From: Actinomycetes bacterium
GTDB taxonomy: Bacteria; Actinomycetota; Acidimicrobiia; Acidimicrobiales; Palsa-688
NCBI GenBank assembly: GCA_021838305.1
Contig: JAKCEB010000004.1
Location: 1-41,260 of the forward strand
Direction: 5' to 3'
DNA length: 41,260 nucleotides
In this document: piece after piece, positions 11,831-40,926 of the stretch
Layout of the letters: every line of letters begins with the position of its first letter
Numbering within the stretch: position 1 is the stretch's first letter
Program-made: the position numbers and the translations under genes
The notes under the pieces: generated by a model
The model's database searches: none
Told to the model about the DNA's origin: nothing
The model's input: the letters and a program-made list of their open reading frames with translations, nothing else

Positions 11831-11986
11831 GTCGGGCCACGAATAGTGGCGTCGACACTGCTACTAACTCCGCTCCTCACGAATGCTAGAAACATCATCG
11901 ATCCAATCGAAGTGGTCGCTGACCAATCTTCTCGTTTTTCCGAATTGCTACGGCGACCACCGTGGGCGCCGTCAGTCTGCTGCGAT

Positions 11987-14900
11987 ATGGGTATGGTTCA
12001 CCCGGTCAACATGACCAACGGAACCAACAGCGAGTATCGACTCCGCCTTCCTCGCAAGCGGCACCTCAACTCGACCGGGCGGCTAGTCGCTGCGGTGTGC
12101 GTGGTTATGTCGAGCCTCGCTGCGATCGGGTACCTTCGCTTGTCGAGCCAGTCGCTCGGAAGACCCGGAAGGGTGGGCACCGCTAATCAAGTGCCCGGCA
12201 GCATCGCGGCCCCGAGCGCTTCAAGCATCACCAGTAGCTGTCAAATGCCGACGCCGGCCCAAGAGCTTGGTCCTCGCCCCGTACTGCCGGGAAATCCGTT
12301 TCGCAAAGTGATCTTGCCTCAAGGTGGTTTCGACGAGATGTCAGTTTCGGCGACGGGGATATACACCGTTGGTGCTAGTGGCGTAGACGTCTATAGCATG
12401 ACGGGCCGGCTACTGGACAGGTTCGCGCTACCTGCACGTTTGATGGCGCACAAACCGACCGACTTCAGCCAGCCGGTCGTCGACCCCTCCGGCCACATCT
12501 TTCTATCGTCGCGAACTGGTGGGTGGGTTGCCGAACTGTCAGCTCACGGTTCGTTGTTGCGTACTTTTCCCATTCGAGGAGAACCGACCAATATCTTCGC
12601 TCTGCAGTCGGGATCAGCCTCGAAGACCTTCGAGCTTGGTGTCAGCACTACGACCCTAGTTTCGTCGAGTCTCGTCTTTGATGAGGGCGGCCACTATATG
12701 GGACACGTAGCTTTCAGGGCTGCGACCTCGGGTTGGCTAACGAATGGCGTTGCGCACCAGATGGTCTATTCGGATGGGAAGGGTTTCGTCCAAGTCTGGG
12801 ACTCGTCAGGCAAGACGATGGAGTCTCGCTTCGGCTCGCAAGTGCTGAGTGGCATCGACTCCTACACCGGAGGACCTTTCAGTTTCGATGTGGCAGGCGA
12901 GGCTGCCGCTGGACCTCACGGAACCATCTATGCCGTAAACGGACCAAATGCTTTGACGGTAACTTCAGCCGATGGAATCCTAAAAACCGTCACGAGTCTC
13001 GGCGGGAGTTTGGGAGGGTCGACGAGCGCCACGGGGGCGCTGTTTGAACAGAACGGCAACCTTTATTTGCAGACCGGCCAGGTCGGCGACAGCTCGAAGG
13101 ACTCCATCTCCGTCCTGGCGTTGACAACACTGCGTAAGTTCGCGGCTGCGCCTCGAACGCTCAACACGCTTGGATGGGGAGCCGGCCTCCGGGCGGCGGC
13201 AGCAGGAAACTACTTCCCGCCGGGTACGTCGCCGACGCTCAGCGCAGTCTTCGACCCGTGGTGGTCTCGCATTTGGGGTCACTTGGCGCTCAAGTTATCG
13301 ATCTGGAATGTGTCCCAGATCTCAGGCGGGATTCCCCCAATTCCACAGACGGTGGATCTCGGCCGGTCGAAGTTTTCTACAAACGTCACCCTTCCGGTGC
13401 CGCTTCTCGACGCAGCGCCCGGCCCTTATGAGCTTGAAGGAGAGCTCGTCGACACGTCCGTCGTCCCGCCGTCGCTACTCGGCACGGCATGCATGCCTTT
13501 CAGCGTCGGGGCGCCTGGCGACCGGCTCAACTTGAACTCGCTGTCCACAGGTGTTGGAGCGGGCGGACCGAGCGCGTCGAGAGGGGTGCAACTCAACTCG
13601 CAGCTTGGACTCAGCGGCTTTCGCCCAGACTCGCCTATAGGCCTTTCACAGTTCCTCACCCACTGTGACCCGGCGCGCCCATCGTCGTCCACCTGCGGAC
13701 CCCAGGCGATGACCTTTGGATCTGCCCCGCTCGGCTACTTCCGTGCCGCAGCTATCGCCGCCAGCCGGGGCGTGACCTTCTGGATTCAGGTGAGCGGCGG
13801 CGGTCAGCTCGGTCGGATGCTCGCTGCCCACGGGTGGTGGGGCCCGGATGTGGAGAAACTCGTCACCTTCTACTCCGCGTCCCCTCCCGCTGGATGCTTG
13901 GTCTGCGCACCGGTGACTAGATGGGAGCCGTGGAATGAACCGAACTCCACCGGCTTCTCGAATGCGACCAACTACGTCTCAGAGGTCTTGAAGCCGTTCT
14001 ACGCCGCAGTCAAGCGAGCCGACGTCGAAGACACGGTCCTCGGCGGTTCGACACTCGGTGTCCCAATCGCATGGTGGACAGCCTTGGTGGCGGCGGGGGG
14101 TTTGTCCTACATGGATGTCGCTACCGTGCATCCCTACACCGGAAACAACGATTCGTGGGCGGAAGACGGAACGCAGGTGCAGCTCGCACAGCTACAACGG
14201 CTTGTGTCGCCAAAGCCGCTTTGGATCAGCGAGCTCGGCTGGTGGAGCGACGGCCCCTACGACTTCCTGGCTCAGGCCGACAACGTCGCTCAAGCAATGG
14301 TTGCCCAGAAGGCGCTAGACATACCCGTCTGGAACTACTTCTTCGACGAAGGAAGCTGGGGCAACGACGGTGTCAGCTTCTCACTCATCCAGACGTCAGG
14401 ACGCGGCGACGACTATGTCAAGCCCGCGGCTCTTGCGACGATGACAGCCTCCAGCGAGTTGTCCGGATCCACCTTCGAAGGAAACTCTGCGACAGGAATA
14501 CCCTACGTATATCAGGCAAACTTCGCGAGACCGTCGCCGAGCAGAGGGAACCTTGCTGTCGTGTGGACAGGTGGGACGGCCGACGTCGAATCGCTGACAG
14601 TGTCAGGACCAGCGAGTAGTGCCAGCACAGTACCGATCGTGGTGACCAACGAGTACGGCCGCTCCACTTCCTACCGGCTCCGTACCTCGGTCAGTTATCG
14701 CTTCGCTGTCTCGCAATCGGTAACATACGTGCTATCACCTCGTGGTTACCACCTTGCACTTGAGTCGACAGAGCCATTCGGACCCAACCTGGCTCTCTCC
14801 TCCTCGGGAGCGACGGCGACGGCCTCGTCCTCAGGGCCGGGCAATCCAGCGGCAGCAGCGATAGCCGGGACCGCCGCCTCCGCCGGCTACGGTCAGGGAT

Positions 14901-15313
14901 GGATGCCGGCGTCCGGCGACACTCACCCATATCTGACTGTGAGGCTTGCTAAGCCTGCAGAGATCAACCGGGTACTTGTGGACAGTCAGTCTGAAGGCAG
15001 CACTGCGGCGGGTCTACGGAATTACGCGATCCAGGTGCTAAACCCTAAAGGTAACTGGATCCAGGTCGCGCAAGTTAGGCAGGAATTCCGCGATCACGTC
15101 GATGAGTTGGCTTTTGATCCCGTTGTCACAAGGTCGATCAGGGTAGTAATCACAGCAGCCAATTACGGCGGATACGCTGGAGGTGGAGTCCCAAGCTTCT
15201 GGCCTATCGGCCAGGCACAAAGCCCCCTCCTTCACTCGCTTCAGGTGTACTCCGGGTCACTCAACCCGACGGCCGTCGGGGGTGGCGCGCTGAGTTCCTT
15301 ACCCGTCGCCTGA
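11987..15313 (+). CDS. Large secreted/membrane-anchored protein: N-terminal propeller-like region, clan GH-A-like glycoside hydrolase domain, C-terminal discoidin (F5/8 type C)-like domain
   Basis: ORF 11846..15313; likely start at 11987 or 12011. N-terminal TM/signal (LVAAVCVVMSSLAAIGYL). VTRWEPWNEPNSTGF (putative acid/base Glu) and KPLWISELGWW (putative nucleophile Glu). C-terminal PFGPNLALSSSGATATAS...YLTVRLAKPAEINRVLVDSQ...YAIQVLNPKGNWIQVAQV...RSIRVVITAANYGGY. Confidence 0.8.
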   Translation: MGMVHPVNMTNGTNSEYRLRLPRKRHLNSTGRLVAAVCVVMSSLAAIGYLRLSSQSLGRPGRVGTANQVPGSIAAPSASSITSSCQMPTPAQELGPRPVLPGNPFRKVILPQGGFDEMSVSATGIYTVGASGVDVYSMTGRLLDRFALPARLMAHKPTDFSQPVVDPSGHIFLSSRTGGWVAELSAHGSLLRTFPIRGEPTNIFALQSGSASKTFELGVSTTTLVSSSLVFDEGGHYMGHVAFRAATSGWLTNGVAHQMVYSDGKGFVQVWDSSGKTMESRFGSQVLSGIDSYTGGPFSFDVAGEAAAGPHGTIYAVNGPNALTVTSADGILKTVTSLGGSLGGSTSATGALFEQNGNLYLQTGQVGDSSKDSISVLALTTLRKFAAAPRTLNTLGWGAGLRAAAAGNYFPPGTSPTLSAVFDPWWSRIWGHLALKLSIWNVSQISGGIPPIPQTVDLGRSKFSTNVTLPVPLLDAAPGPYELEGELVDTSVVPPSLLGTACMPFSVGAPGDRLNLNSLSTGVGAGGPSASRGVQLNSQLGLSGFRPDSPIGLSQFLTHCDPARPSSSTCGPQAMTFGSAPLGYFRAAAIAASRGVTFWIQVSGGGQLGRMLAAHGWWGPDVEKLVTFYSASPPAGCLVCAPVTRWEPWNEPNSTGFSNATNYVSEVLKPFYAAVKRADVEDTVLGGSTLGVPIAWWTALVAAGGLSYMDVATVHPYTGNNDSWAEDGTQVQLAQLQRLVSPKPLWISELGWWSDGPYDFLAQADNVAQAMVAQKALDIPVWNYFFDEGSWGNDGVSFSLIQTSGRGDDYVKPAALATMTASSELSGSTFEGNSATGIPYVYQANFARPSPSRGNLAVVWTGGTADVESLTVSGPASSASTVPIVVTNEYGRSTSYRLRTSVSYRFAVSQSVTYVLSPRGYHLALESTEPFGPNLALSSSGATATASSSGPGNPAAAAIAGTAASAGYGQGWMPASGDTHPYLTVRLAKPAEINRVLVDSQSEGSTAAGLRNYAIQVLNPKGNWIQVAQVRQEFRDHVDELAFDPVVTRSIRVVITAANYGGYAGGGVPSFWPIGQAQSPLLHSLQVYSGSLNPTAVGGGALSSLPVA

Positions 15314-37485: not shown

Positions 37486-39081
37486 TTACGCGGTTTCGAC
37501 TGCTTCCTGCGGCCACGGGGCTAGGCGGGCCTCGCGCAATAGGCGCCGTTCGTCGACCTTGCTCGATGTGCTGAGCGGCAGTTCGGGTGTAACGATGATC
37601 CGGTCCGGCAGCATAGTTGTGGGAAGAACGGCTGCTGCGCGATCTCGGACCGCAAGGTGATCCATACCAGTATCGACTACGACGAAAGCTGCGACGCCCA
37701 GCGTGCCTTCGTTGTCGAAGGTTGCGATTGCCGCTGCTTGAACGCCGCTGAGCTTCGTCAGCTCCTCGGCAATCTCGACCAACGAGAGCCTTATCCCGCT
37801 TCGCTTTATCACGCGGTCGGCTCGTCCCAAAAAGGCATAGTGGCCGCGCTCGTCGAGACGCATCAGATCGCCCGTCTTGTAGACGACCTCCCCCGGGACG
37901 GCATCGCATCTCAACACAGATGTCGTCAGCTCGGGAGCCTTCCAATAGCTCTCCATTAGTTGGCCGCCACCGACATAGAGCTCGCCCACTTCGCCCGGAG
38001 TGTTGACGGGCGTGCCGTCCGACTTGAGGAGGTGGAAGCTTGTCCCCCGGTGCGGACCTCCAATCGGAACATAGCCACCGGCCAACAACTCAGGAGTCAA
38101 CTCGAAGTCCGAAACCGTGATCGTCGTCTCGGTTGGCCCGTAGCGGTTGATTACTCTGATCGACGGCTTGACGTCCCAAATGGAGTTCACTTCGCTGCAC
38201 GAGGCGGCTTCCCCGCCAAGCGCAACCACTTGGACGGCACTGTTGGCGAACCCTGAAAGACCTCGTCCGGTCAGAAGGAGTCTGAGAAAGCTCGGGGAGA
38301 AACTGACCGAGTTGATCTCATGGCGAGCGAGGGCGGAGAAGTAAGCGCGCGGAAAGGCCAGTGAGCTTCGTTCCGGTATGACGAGTAAGCCGCCGTAGTA
38401 CAGCGTCGGGAAGATCGTCGAGAACGAGCCGTCGAAATGGACTGGCGACACGCAAAGGGCGCGGGTGTCGATGTCGACGGGTTGAATTCTCCCGATCTCG
38501 GCCACGGAGGACGCGAAGGCCGAGCTAGAGATCATCGCCCCTTTCGGCGATCCGGTCGTACCTGAGGTATAGATGGCGTAAGCGAGTCGGCCAGCTCGGG
38601 GCGTAGGTGCCTCGAAGTCCGCGGCCGGACGAGCGAGGTCACGATAACGGACCGCCCTGTGCTCCGGTGGAAAGATCTCTGTCTGATCAGCAAATATCAC
38701 TAAATGCGGTTCGCAGTCGGAGATGATCGCCGCTTGGCGCTCGTGCGGGTCCGAGACCGACACCGGCACGAACATGGCCCCGAGCCAGTTGCAGGCGAGT
38801 GCAGCCACGACGAAGTCTACGGAGTTGCCGATCAGCAGAACGACTCGGCTGTCCACGCCGGCGCCAAGATTCGCTATTCCGGTGGCGACTCGGCGGATCT
38901 CATCGGCGAGATCGGCGTACGAAATCTCGCGATCCAGGTCCTTGACGGCCGGACGGTCGCCGAGCAGTTCGGCGTTTGCAAGCACAGCCGAAAGCACGTC
39001 AGCTTGTAGGTCAGGTTCCGGGGTGGTGATGGGCGGGCCGCCCGCTCCGGTCCGATTCCCGACATCGTTAGTGCGCATCAC
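37486..39081 (-). CDS. Free-standing NRPS-type adenylation (AMP-binding) protein
   Basis: AYAIYTSGTTGSPKGAMISSSAF (A3), VINRYGPTETTI (A5), VYKTGDLMRLDERGHYAFLGRADRVIKRSGIRLSLVEIAEEL (A7/A8), LPLSTSSKVDERRL (A10-like K). Confidence 0.93.
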   Translation of the reverse strand: MMRTNDVGNRTGAGGPPITTPEPDLQADVLSAVLANAELLGDRPAVKDLDREISYADLADEIRRVATGIANLGAGVDSRVVLLIGNSVDFVVAALACNWLGAMFVPVSVSDPHERQAAIISDCEPHLVIFADQTEIFPPEHRAVRYRDLARPAADFEAPTPRAGRLAYAIYTSGTTGSPKGAMISSSAFASSVAEIGRIQPVDIDTRALCVSPVHFDGSFSTIFPTLYYGGLLVIPERSSLAFPRAYFSALARHEINSVSFSPSFLRLLLTGRGLSGFANSAVQVVALGGEAASCSEVNSIWDVKPSIRVINRYGPTETTITVSDFELTPELLAGGYVPIGGPHRGTSFHLLKSDGTPVNTPGEVGELYVGGGQLMESYWKAPELTTSVLRCDAVPGEVVYKTGDLMRLDERGHYAFLGRADRVIKRSGIRLSLVEIAEELTKLSGVQAAAIATFDNEGTLGVAAFVVVDTGMDHLAVRDRAAAVLPTTMLPDRIIVTPELPLSTSSKVDERRLLREARLAPWPQEAVETA

Positions 39082-39115
39082 GTCGATGTTATTCAGGAGA
39101 GTTGGGCTTGAGCGG

Positions 39116-39158
39116 TCCGCCCCGGATTCGAGCGCAGAGCTTGCGGATCAAGAGTCGA
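39116..39158 (-). repeat. Degenerate direct repeat of the 3' half of tRNA-Lys (tRNA remnant/att-like sequence)
   Basis: cgccccggattcgagcgcagagcttgcggatcaagagtcg aligns with the antisense strand of tRNA-Lys, cgccccctgggattcgaacccagaacctgcggattaagagtccg. About 6-7 mismatches over the core 35 nt plus a 3-nt gap. Confidence 0.75.
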
Positions 39159-39247
39159 GGTAGTGCCGGCCGTCCCCGGTCTCGGGTTGTTGGCCTGCAG
39201 CGGGTCGAGCTCGGCCGGGGGGAGGTTGATCGGTTCAGCTGGGACGG

Positions 39248-39489
39248 TCATAGTGCCGCGACCGCGACGACGCCGGTCCCGGAGAAATCATCGCCGACGT
39301 CCAAGAGGTCGTGGGTCGACTTGGCCAAGCGTAAGAGAAGAGATCGCCGAAGTTGAGCCCGGCCGGGCGATCATCAAGAACGGGGAGGGCGTCGCAGCGC
39401 TCAGCGATGGCCATCAGGTCGGAGCCCAGCTTCCTTGTCCCCGCCACACGGCGGACCCGCTCCAGGCGCTCCCGAAGCGCGGGTGCCAC
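39248..39489 (-). pseudogene. Decayed vapBC toxin-antitoxin remnant (VapB C-terminus fused to frameshifted VapC PIN C-terminus)
   Basis: ALRERLERVRRVAGTRKLGSDLMAIAERCDALPVLDDRPA (VapB-like), then GLNFGDLFSYA, then after a frame change LAKSTHDLLDVGDDFSGTGVVAVAAL* (VapC-like), ending at TGA 39248-39250. Confidence 0.75.
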
Positions 39490-39519
39490 GGCGGGTGGGT
39501 GGGGTTGGGTTGGTTGGGG

Positions 39520-39591
39520 TGCGCCCCCTGGGATTCGAACCCAGAACCTGCGGATTAAGAGTCCGTTGCTCTGCCATTGAGCTAGAGGCGC
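39520..39591 (-). tRNA. tRNA-Lys (CTT)
   Basis: GCGCCTCTAGCTCAATGGCAGAGCAACGGACTCTTAATCCGCAGGTTCTGGGTTCGAATCCCAGGGGGCGCA; cloverleaf pairs, anticodon CTT. Confidence 0.95.
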
Positions 39592-39702
39592 AGCTGTCCG
39601 CCCTTTCGCCGAGTCGATCAGCTAGCCAAAAGCTCGGTTCGCTGATAGCTCGGTCGGGGCCGACGGCGATGTTACCCCAGACTTCGAGCACTTTCACGCA
39701 AG

Positions 39703-39780
39703 TGGGGTGACCGAGGGGACTTGAACCCCCGACCTCCAGGGCCACAACCTGGCGCTCTAACCAACTGAGCTACGGCCACC
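39703..39780 (-). tRNA. tRNA-His (GTG)
   Basis: GGTGGCCGTAGCTCAGTTGGTTAGAGCGCCAGGTTGTGGCCCTGGAGGTCGGGGGTTCAAGTCCCCTCGGTCACCCCA; anticodon GTG, extra 5' G, encoded CCA. Confidence 0.95.
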
Positions 39781-40877: not shown

Positions 40878-40926
40878 AGACTGTGCGTGTAATTGCACGG
40901 AAAATGTGCAATTACACGCACAGTCT
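40878..40926. repeat. Perfect 21-bp inverted repeat with 7-nt loop
   Basis: AGACTGTGCGTGTAATTGCAC-GGAAAAT-GTGCAATTACACGCACAGTCT; the arms are exact reverse complements. Confidence 0.95.

Follow-up and report, generated by a model that had tools for sequence, protein, structure and literature searches.

The window, i.e., the whole analysed stretch of DNA of 41,260 nucleotides, is identical with contig C1, part of a draft genome of 2.8 Mb (completeness 77%, contamination 5%). The features around its tRNA-Lys gene are as follows.

37486-39081, minus strand: AMP-binding (A-domain) gene, native flank of the insertion site (PF00501, E 8e-62)
39114-39156, minus strand: degenerate copy of the tRNA-Lys 3′ half, read as the displaced original end of the gene and distal att scar (alignment, and position in relatives G001 and G002)
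39157-39517, no strand: 361 bp without an integrase, read as all that remains of the integrated element (69% G+C vs. 61% for the window)
39230-39367, minus strand: remnant of vapC (PIN toxin), 3′ part only, 5′ part deleted and frame shifted (78% nucleotide identity to vapC of relative G008)
39360-39494, minus strand: what is left of vapB (antitoxin of the PSK_trans_fac/Rv0623 type), lacking its 5′ end and joined to vapC (nucleotide identity with G008 vapB, 77%)
39517-39592, minus strand: intact tRNA-Lys (CTT), read as the integration target (ARAGORN and Rfam RF00005, 69.2 bits)
39703-39779, minus strand: tRNA-His, native flank on the other side (tRNA calls; conserved beside tRNA-Lys in relatives)

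The tRNA-Lys/tRNA-His pair is found repeatedly through the order. A 21-bp inverted repeat without mismatches, its arms separated by a 7-nt loop (agactgtgcgtgtaattgcac ... gtgcaattacacgcacagtct), lies at 40878-40926, approximately 90 bp past tRNA-Arg, and is perhaps a terminator or a binding site.

A degenerate direct repeat of the tRNA-Lys 3′ half had been noticed in the first-pass annotation. In the best local alignment of 39100-39170 with 39515-39595, positions 39114-39156 pair with 39518-39563 in the same orientation over 46 columns, comprising 37 identities (37/43, or 86%), 6 substitutions, and one 3-nt gap, with a score of 47 (+2/-3/-5/-2). When the short piece was dinucleotide-shuffled, scores did not exceed 26, and when the entire 39.5 kb on its left was shuffled, they did not exceed 35; a score of 47 was reached by none of the 5000 and 60 shuffles, respectively. 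The repeat, which is the top match of tRNA-Lys across those 39.5 kb, is thus real and had been described correctly, but its coordinates had been given two bases off, as 39116-39158. The similarity spans the acceptor 3′ strand, T arm, variable loop, 3′ anticodon strand, and anticodon loop, where AAG on the window strand represents the CTT anticodon, and ends in the first bases past that loop. The recognisable anticodon loop and the stop in the anticodon region had also been reported, and both are borne out by the alignment. The tRNA-His and tRNA-Arg genes were rejected as sources of the repeat, as they gave no meaningful alignment (score 6 vs. 26 in a second scoring scheme), and two more matches to tRNA-Lys in the same genome are ordinary tRNA-Thr and tRNA-Gln genes.

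The probable state of the site before insertion can be seen in two other genomes of the genus (G001 and G002), both fragmented assemblies. In each of them, the first start codon of the AMP-binding orthologue comes 5-6 nt after the 3′ end of tRNA-Lys (L034 10085-10090 and L035 2436-2442), and neither the repeat nor vapBC occurs between the two genes. From a matched point in the AMP-binding gene to the tRNA, window positions 38583-39519 correspond to 469 bp in G001, and 38844-39519 to 208 bp in G002; the window is longer by 467 bp in both cases. The offset of 404 bp between scar and tRNA accounts for all but 63 bp of this extra length in both comparisons, and the degenerate copy occupies the position of the tRNA end in the empty sites. 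This agreement constitutes independent evidence because the position of the repeat was chosen without regard to it. The flanks are collinear on both sides of the insertion site. A third relative (L090) carries its AMP-binding gene on a 3.3-kb contig without the tRNA and is thus not informative on the site. The gap of 5-6 nt in G001 and G002 leaves no space for a promoter, and judging from this spacing the AMP-binding gene may therefore be transcribed together with the tRNAs there. The true start of its open reading frame (ORF) is uncertain since the conserved part of the protein begins later.

With regard to the DNA between the two copies, a vapBC remnant had been placed there previously, and alignment with the vapBC genes of G008, a family member, supports this. 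The G008 proteins belong to PF07704 (VapB, E 5e-27) and PF01850 (VapC, E 4e-17). Of vapC, the window retains the 3′ part, and of vapB, the middle; about 310 bp that span the vapB 3′ end and the vapC 5′ part are gone, the loss being at a short shared GC-rich sequence. On the tRNA side, the start region of vapB is absent as well, and the vapC part is then out of frame. What is left is a pair of fused, frameshifted fragments containing no complete frame for a PIN toxin or an antitoxin, and not a VapBC module. It matches PF07704 only weakly (E 9.5e-4, under the curated cut-off), and the ORFs overlapping it matched no Pfam family. No integrase is present within the 361 bp, and the four integrase matches in the genome are all on other contigs. 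Neither the remnant nor the 361-bp segment has a second copy in its own genome, and the remnant has no counterpart in G001 or G002. The toxin was detected in four of 32 family genomes (E 1e-10), none of the four being in this genus; vertical descent of vapBC beside the tRNA was rejected on account of this distribution and its absence from the other genus members. In the literature, nothing was found directly on vapBC at tRNA att sites.

Elsewhere in the family, integrative elements likewise use this tRNA. An integrase gene of nearly full length starts 79 bp past tRNA-Lys in G023, broken ones start 86 bp past it in G008 and 83 bp in G018, and an integrase fragment starts 28 bp past it in G019. 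These four lie directly beside the tRNA, whereas the integrase of G022 was assigned to tRNA-Lys by contig ends. Perfect copies of 37-46 nt of the tRNA-Lys 3′ half occur in two relatives, G008 and G022. In G008 (L063 15792-18306), a 2.43-kb insert separates tRNA-Lys from a perfect 37-nt copy, the order being tRNA-Lys, the broken integrase, a second vapBC, the 37-nt copy, and the vapBC homologous to the window remnant. In G022, contig C6 starts with an integrase gene (PF00589), and close to its opposite end lies a perfect 46-nt copy whose extent is exactly that of the window scar. Beyond this copy, the DNA equals that of the G008 element's left arm; insertions may thus be stacked here, although the joining of the G022 contigs is inferred. 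Among 31 stretches downstream of tRNA-Lys that were scanned, 3′-half copies scoring at least 30 were found in G000, G003, G005, and G008, all in the orientation of the tRNA and none in the opposite one (shuffle maximum 27); the secondary copies in G005 and G003 (scores 49 and 37, respectively) are weaker.

Some further observations were made at this tRNA. G031 contains a 51-nt copy of the 3′ half (96% identity, L042 4250-4300) in the same orientation, 25 kb from the intact tRNA, and its only tyrosine integrase match is on another contig. In G047 (L061 12959-14000), genes for HTH_66/DUF433 and PIN_10 proteins start 118 bp from tRNA-Lys; they are likely to be a toxin-antitoxin pair, and hence a PIN module of a different kind at the site. 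The first vapC is about 2.1 kb from the tRNA there. A copy on G028:C26 (L045) was called tRNA-Glu-like by ARAGORN and hence not counted as an att site.

Taken with the empty sites in two same-genus genomes, the foreign vapBC between the copies, and the integrases and perfect 3′-half repeats at the same tRNA elsewhere in the family, 39114-39592 is very probably the remnant of an element which integrated at the anticodon region of tRNA-Lys(CTT) and later decayed, as had been proposed at first pass. The marks by which islands are recognised are found here, namely, a displaced fragment in the same orientation, empty sites with collinear flanks, foreign DNA between the copies, and relatives in which elements with an integrase use this tRNA. 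Against this reading, no integrase or excisionase is left at the site, and the simple model does not account for approximately 63 bp that separate the scar from the conserved portion of the AMP-binding gene. Moreover, the comparison within the genus covers two fragmented assemblies, and the genome itself is an incomplete draft with some contamination, although the scar lies inside a single contig and the gene order of this contig matches that of G001. Because the element lacks an integrase, the site is called a remnant and not an intact island.

The course of events was very probably the following. An integrative element with a tyrosine integrase would have recombined into the anticodon region of tRNA-Lys(CTT). 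Its own tRNA 3′ half would have restored the gene, so that 39517-39592 stayed functional, with the 3′ half of the intact tRNA-Lys probably supplied by the incoming element, and the original 3′ half would have been pushed to the far end of the element, adjoining the AMP-binding gene. The element would have carried a vapBC pair near the tRNA. The integrase and almost all other parts would then have been lost by deletion, so that 361 bp with the vapB-vapC fusion pseudogene are left, while the displaced half at 39114-39156, free of selection, would have gained its 6 substitutions and the 3-nt deletion. The repeat and its orientation, the empty sites, the vapBC remnant, and the presence of integrase-bearing elements at this tRNA in relatives are observed; the identity of the lost enzyme as a tyrosine integrase, the original size of the element, and the order of the deletions are inferred.

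It is also conceivable, though quite unlikely, that the tRNA gene was partially duplicated by slippage or ectopic recombination, with no integrase involved and vapBC arriving later. Duplication can create tRNA fragments, and it would agree with the lack of an integrase at the site. However, the copy breaks off in the anticodon region, and so do near-perfect ones in G008, G022, and G033; every secondary copy in the scan has the att orientation, integrases use tRNA-Lys in relatives, and the interval between the copies is filled exactly by foreign DNA.

A second alternative concerns the extent of the insertion. The first-pass annotation had an accessory EPS/A-domain cluster begin at the degenerate copy, and polysaccharide genes are indeed common on tRNA-linked islands, and the cluster is located 3′ of the tRNA. 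Nevertheless, nearly all window proteins have collinear orthologues (41-91% identity) on one G001 contig (C47). The collinear stretch starts at the left contig end, takes in the genes for sugar transferases and glycosyltransferases, and reaches the A-domain gene; the two methionine-type genes adjoining the latter and the whole polysaccharide region are part of it. Moreover, the A-domain gene adjoins the empty tRNA in both G001 and G002. The region thus belongs to what members of the genus have in common, and the scar is not the edge of an island there; a large accessory island including the A-domain gene and EPS cluster is very improbable. The foreign DNA amounts only to the stretch of approximately 0.4 kb that separates the copies. 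The synteny conserved across the proposed boundary overturns it within the genus, while integration at the tRNA is upheld because the relatives lack both repeat and insert. Only an older acquisition in the genus ancestor would be conceivable, and the scar would not mark its boundary. One large ORF (11846-15313; 1155 aa, with a C-terminal F5/8 type C domain) has no match on the G001 contig and is possibly a species-specific insertion in the polysaccharide region. Finally, chance resemblance or generic T-arm similarity can practically be dismissed: T-arm sequences are common to many tRNAs, but the similarity here includes the Lys anticodon loop, is not shared by tRNA-His or tRNA-Arg, scores higher than all 5000 shuffles, and falls where the empty sites place the former tRNA end.

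The site is a clean late-stage case of tRNA-targeted integration, recognisable as such because the same-genus empty sites mark the former tRNA end. The neighbouring polysaccharide/A-domain cluster is common to the genus, and the scar gives no ground for calling it an island. PIN-type modules lie beside tRNA-Lys in three genomes and in different stages: vapBC with a broken integrase (G008), the HTH/DUF433 and PIN-like pair (G047), and the dead vapBC remnant of the window. It may be speculated, albeit with considerable doubt, that tRNA-Lys(CTT) is a recurrent site in the family where integrative elements erode to toxin-antitoxin genes; if true, this would fit the idea that addiction genes are among the last parts to be lost. 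The principle is standard, and what is new is one more instance, notable only for its degree of decay and for the toxin-antitoxin modules of relatives at the same site.

Compared with known systems, the remnant is homologous to G008 vapBC, a member of the VapBC family (PIN toxin and Rv0623-like antitoxin), over parts of both genes, but it is a pseudogene made of fused and frameshifted pieces, in which neither the toxin nor the antitoxin is complete. The G008 tRNA-Lys element shares with the scar the tRNA, the orientation, the 3′-half repeat at the far end, and vapBC modules; on the other hand, its repeat is perfect over 37 nt, and 2.4 kb of it are left, in which the integrase is broken but a vapBC is still open. 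In the islands catalogued by Islander, a regenerated tRNA and a displaced 3′ fragment in the same orientation mark the island ends, and the anticodon region is among the recognised crossover subsites of tDNA-integrated islands (PMC4383910). The scar likewise has a regenerated tRNA, a displaced fragment, and a crossover in the anticodon region, but no more than 361 bp of the element are left, the integrase is gone, and the fragment is only 86% identical with a gap, so that a search requiring an integrase would miss it.
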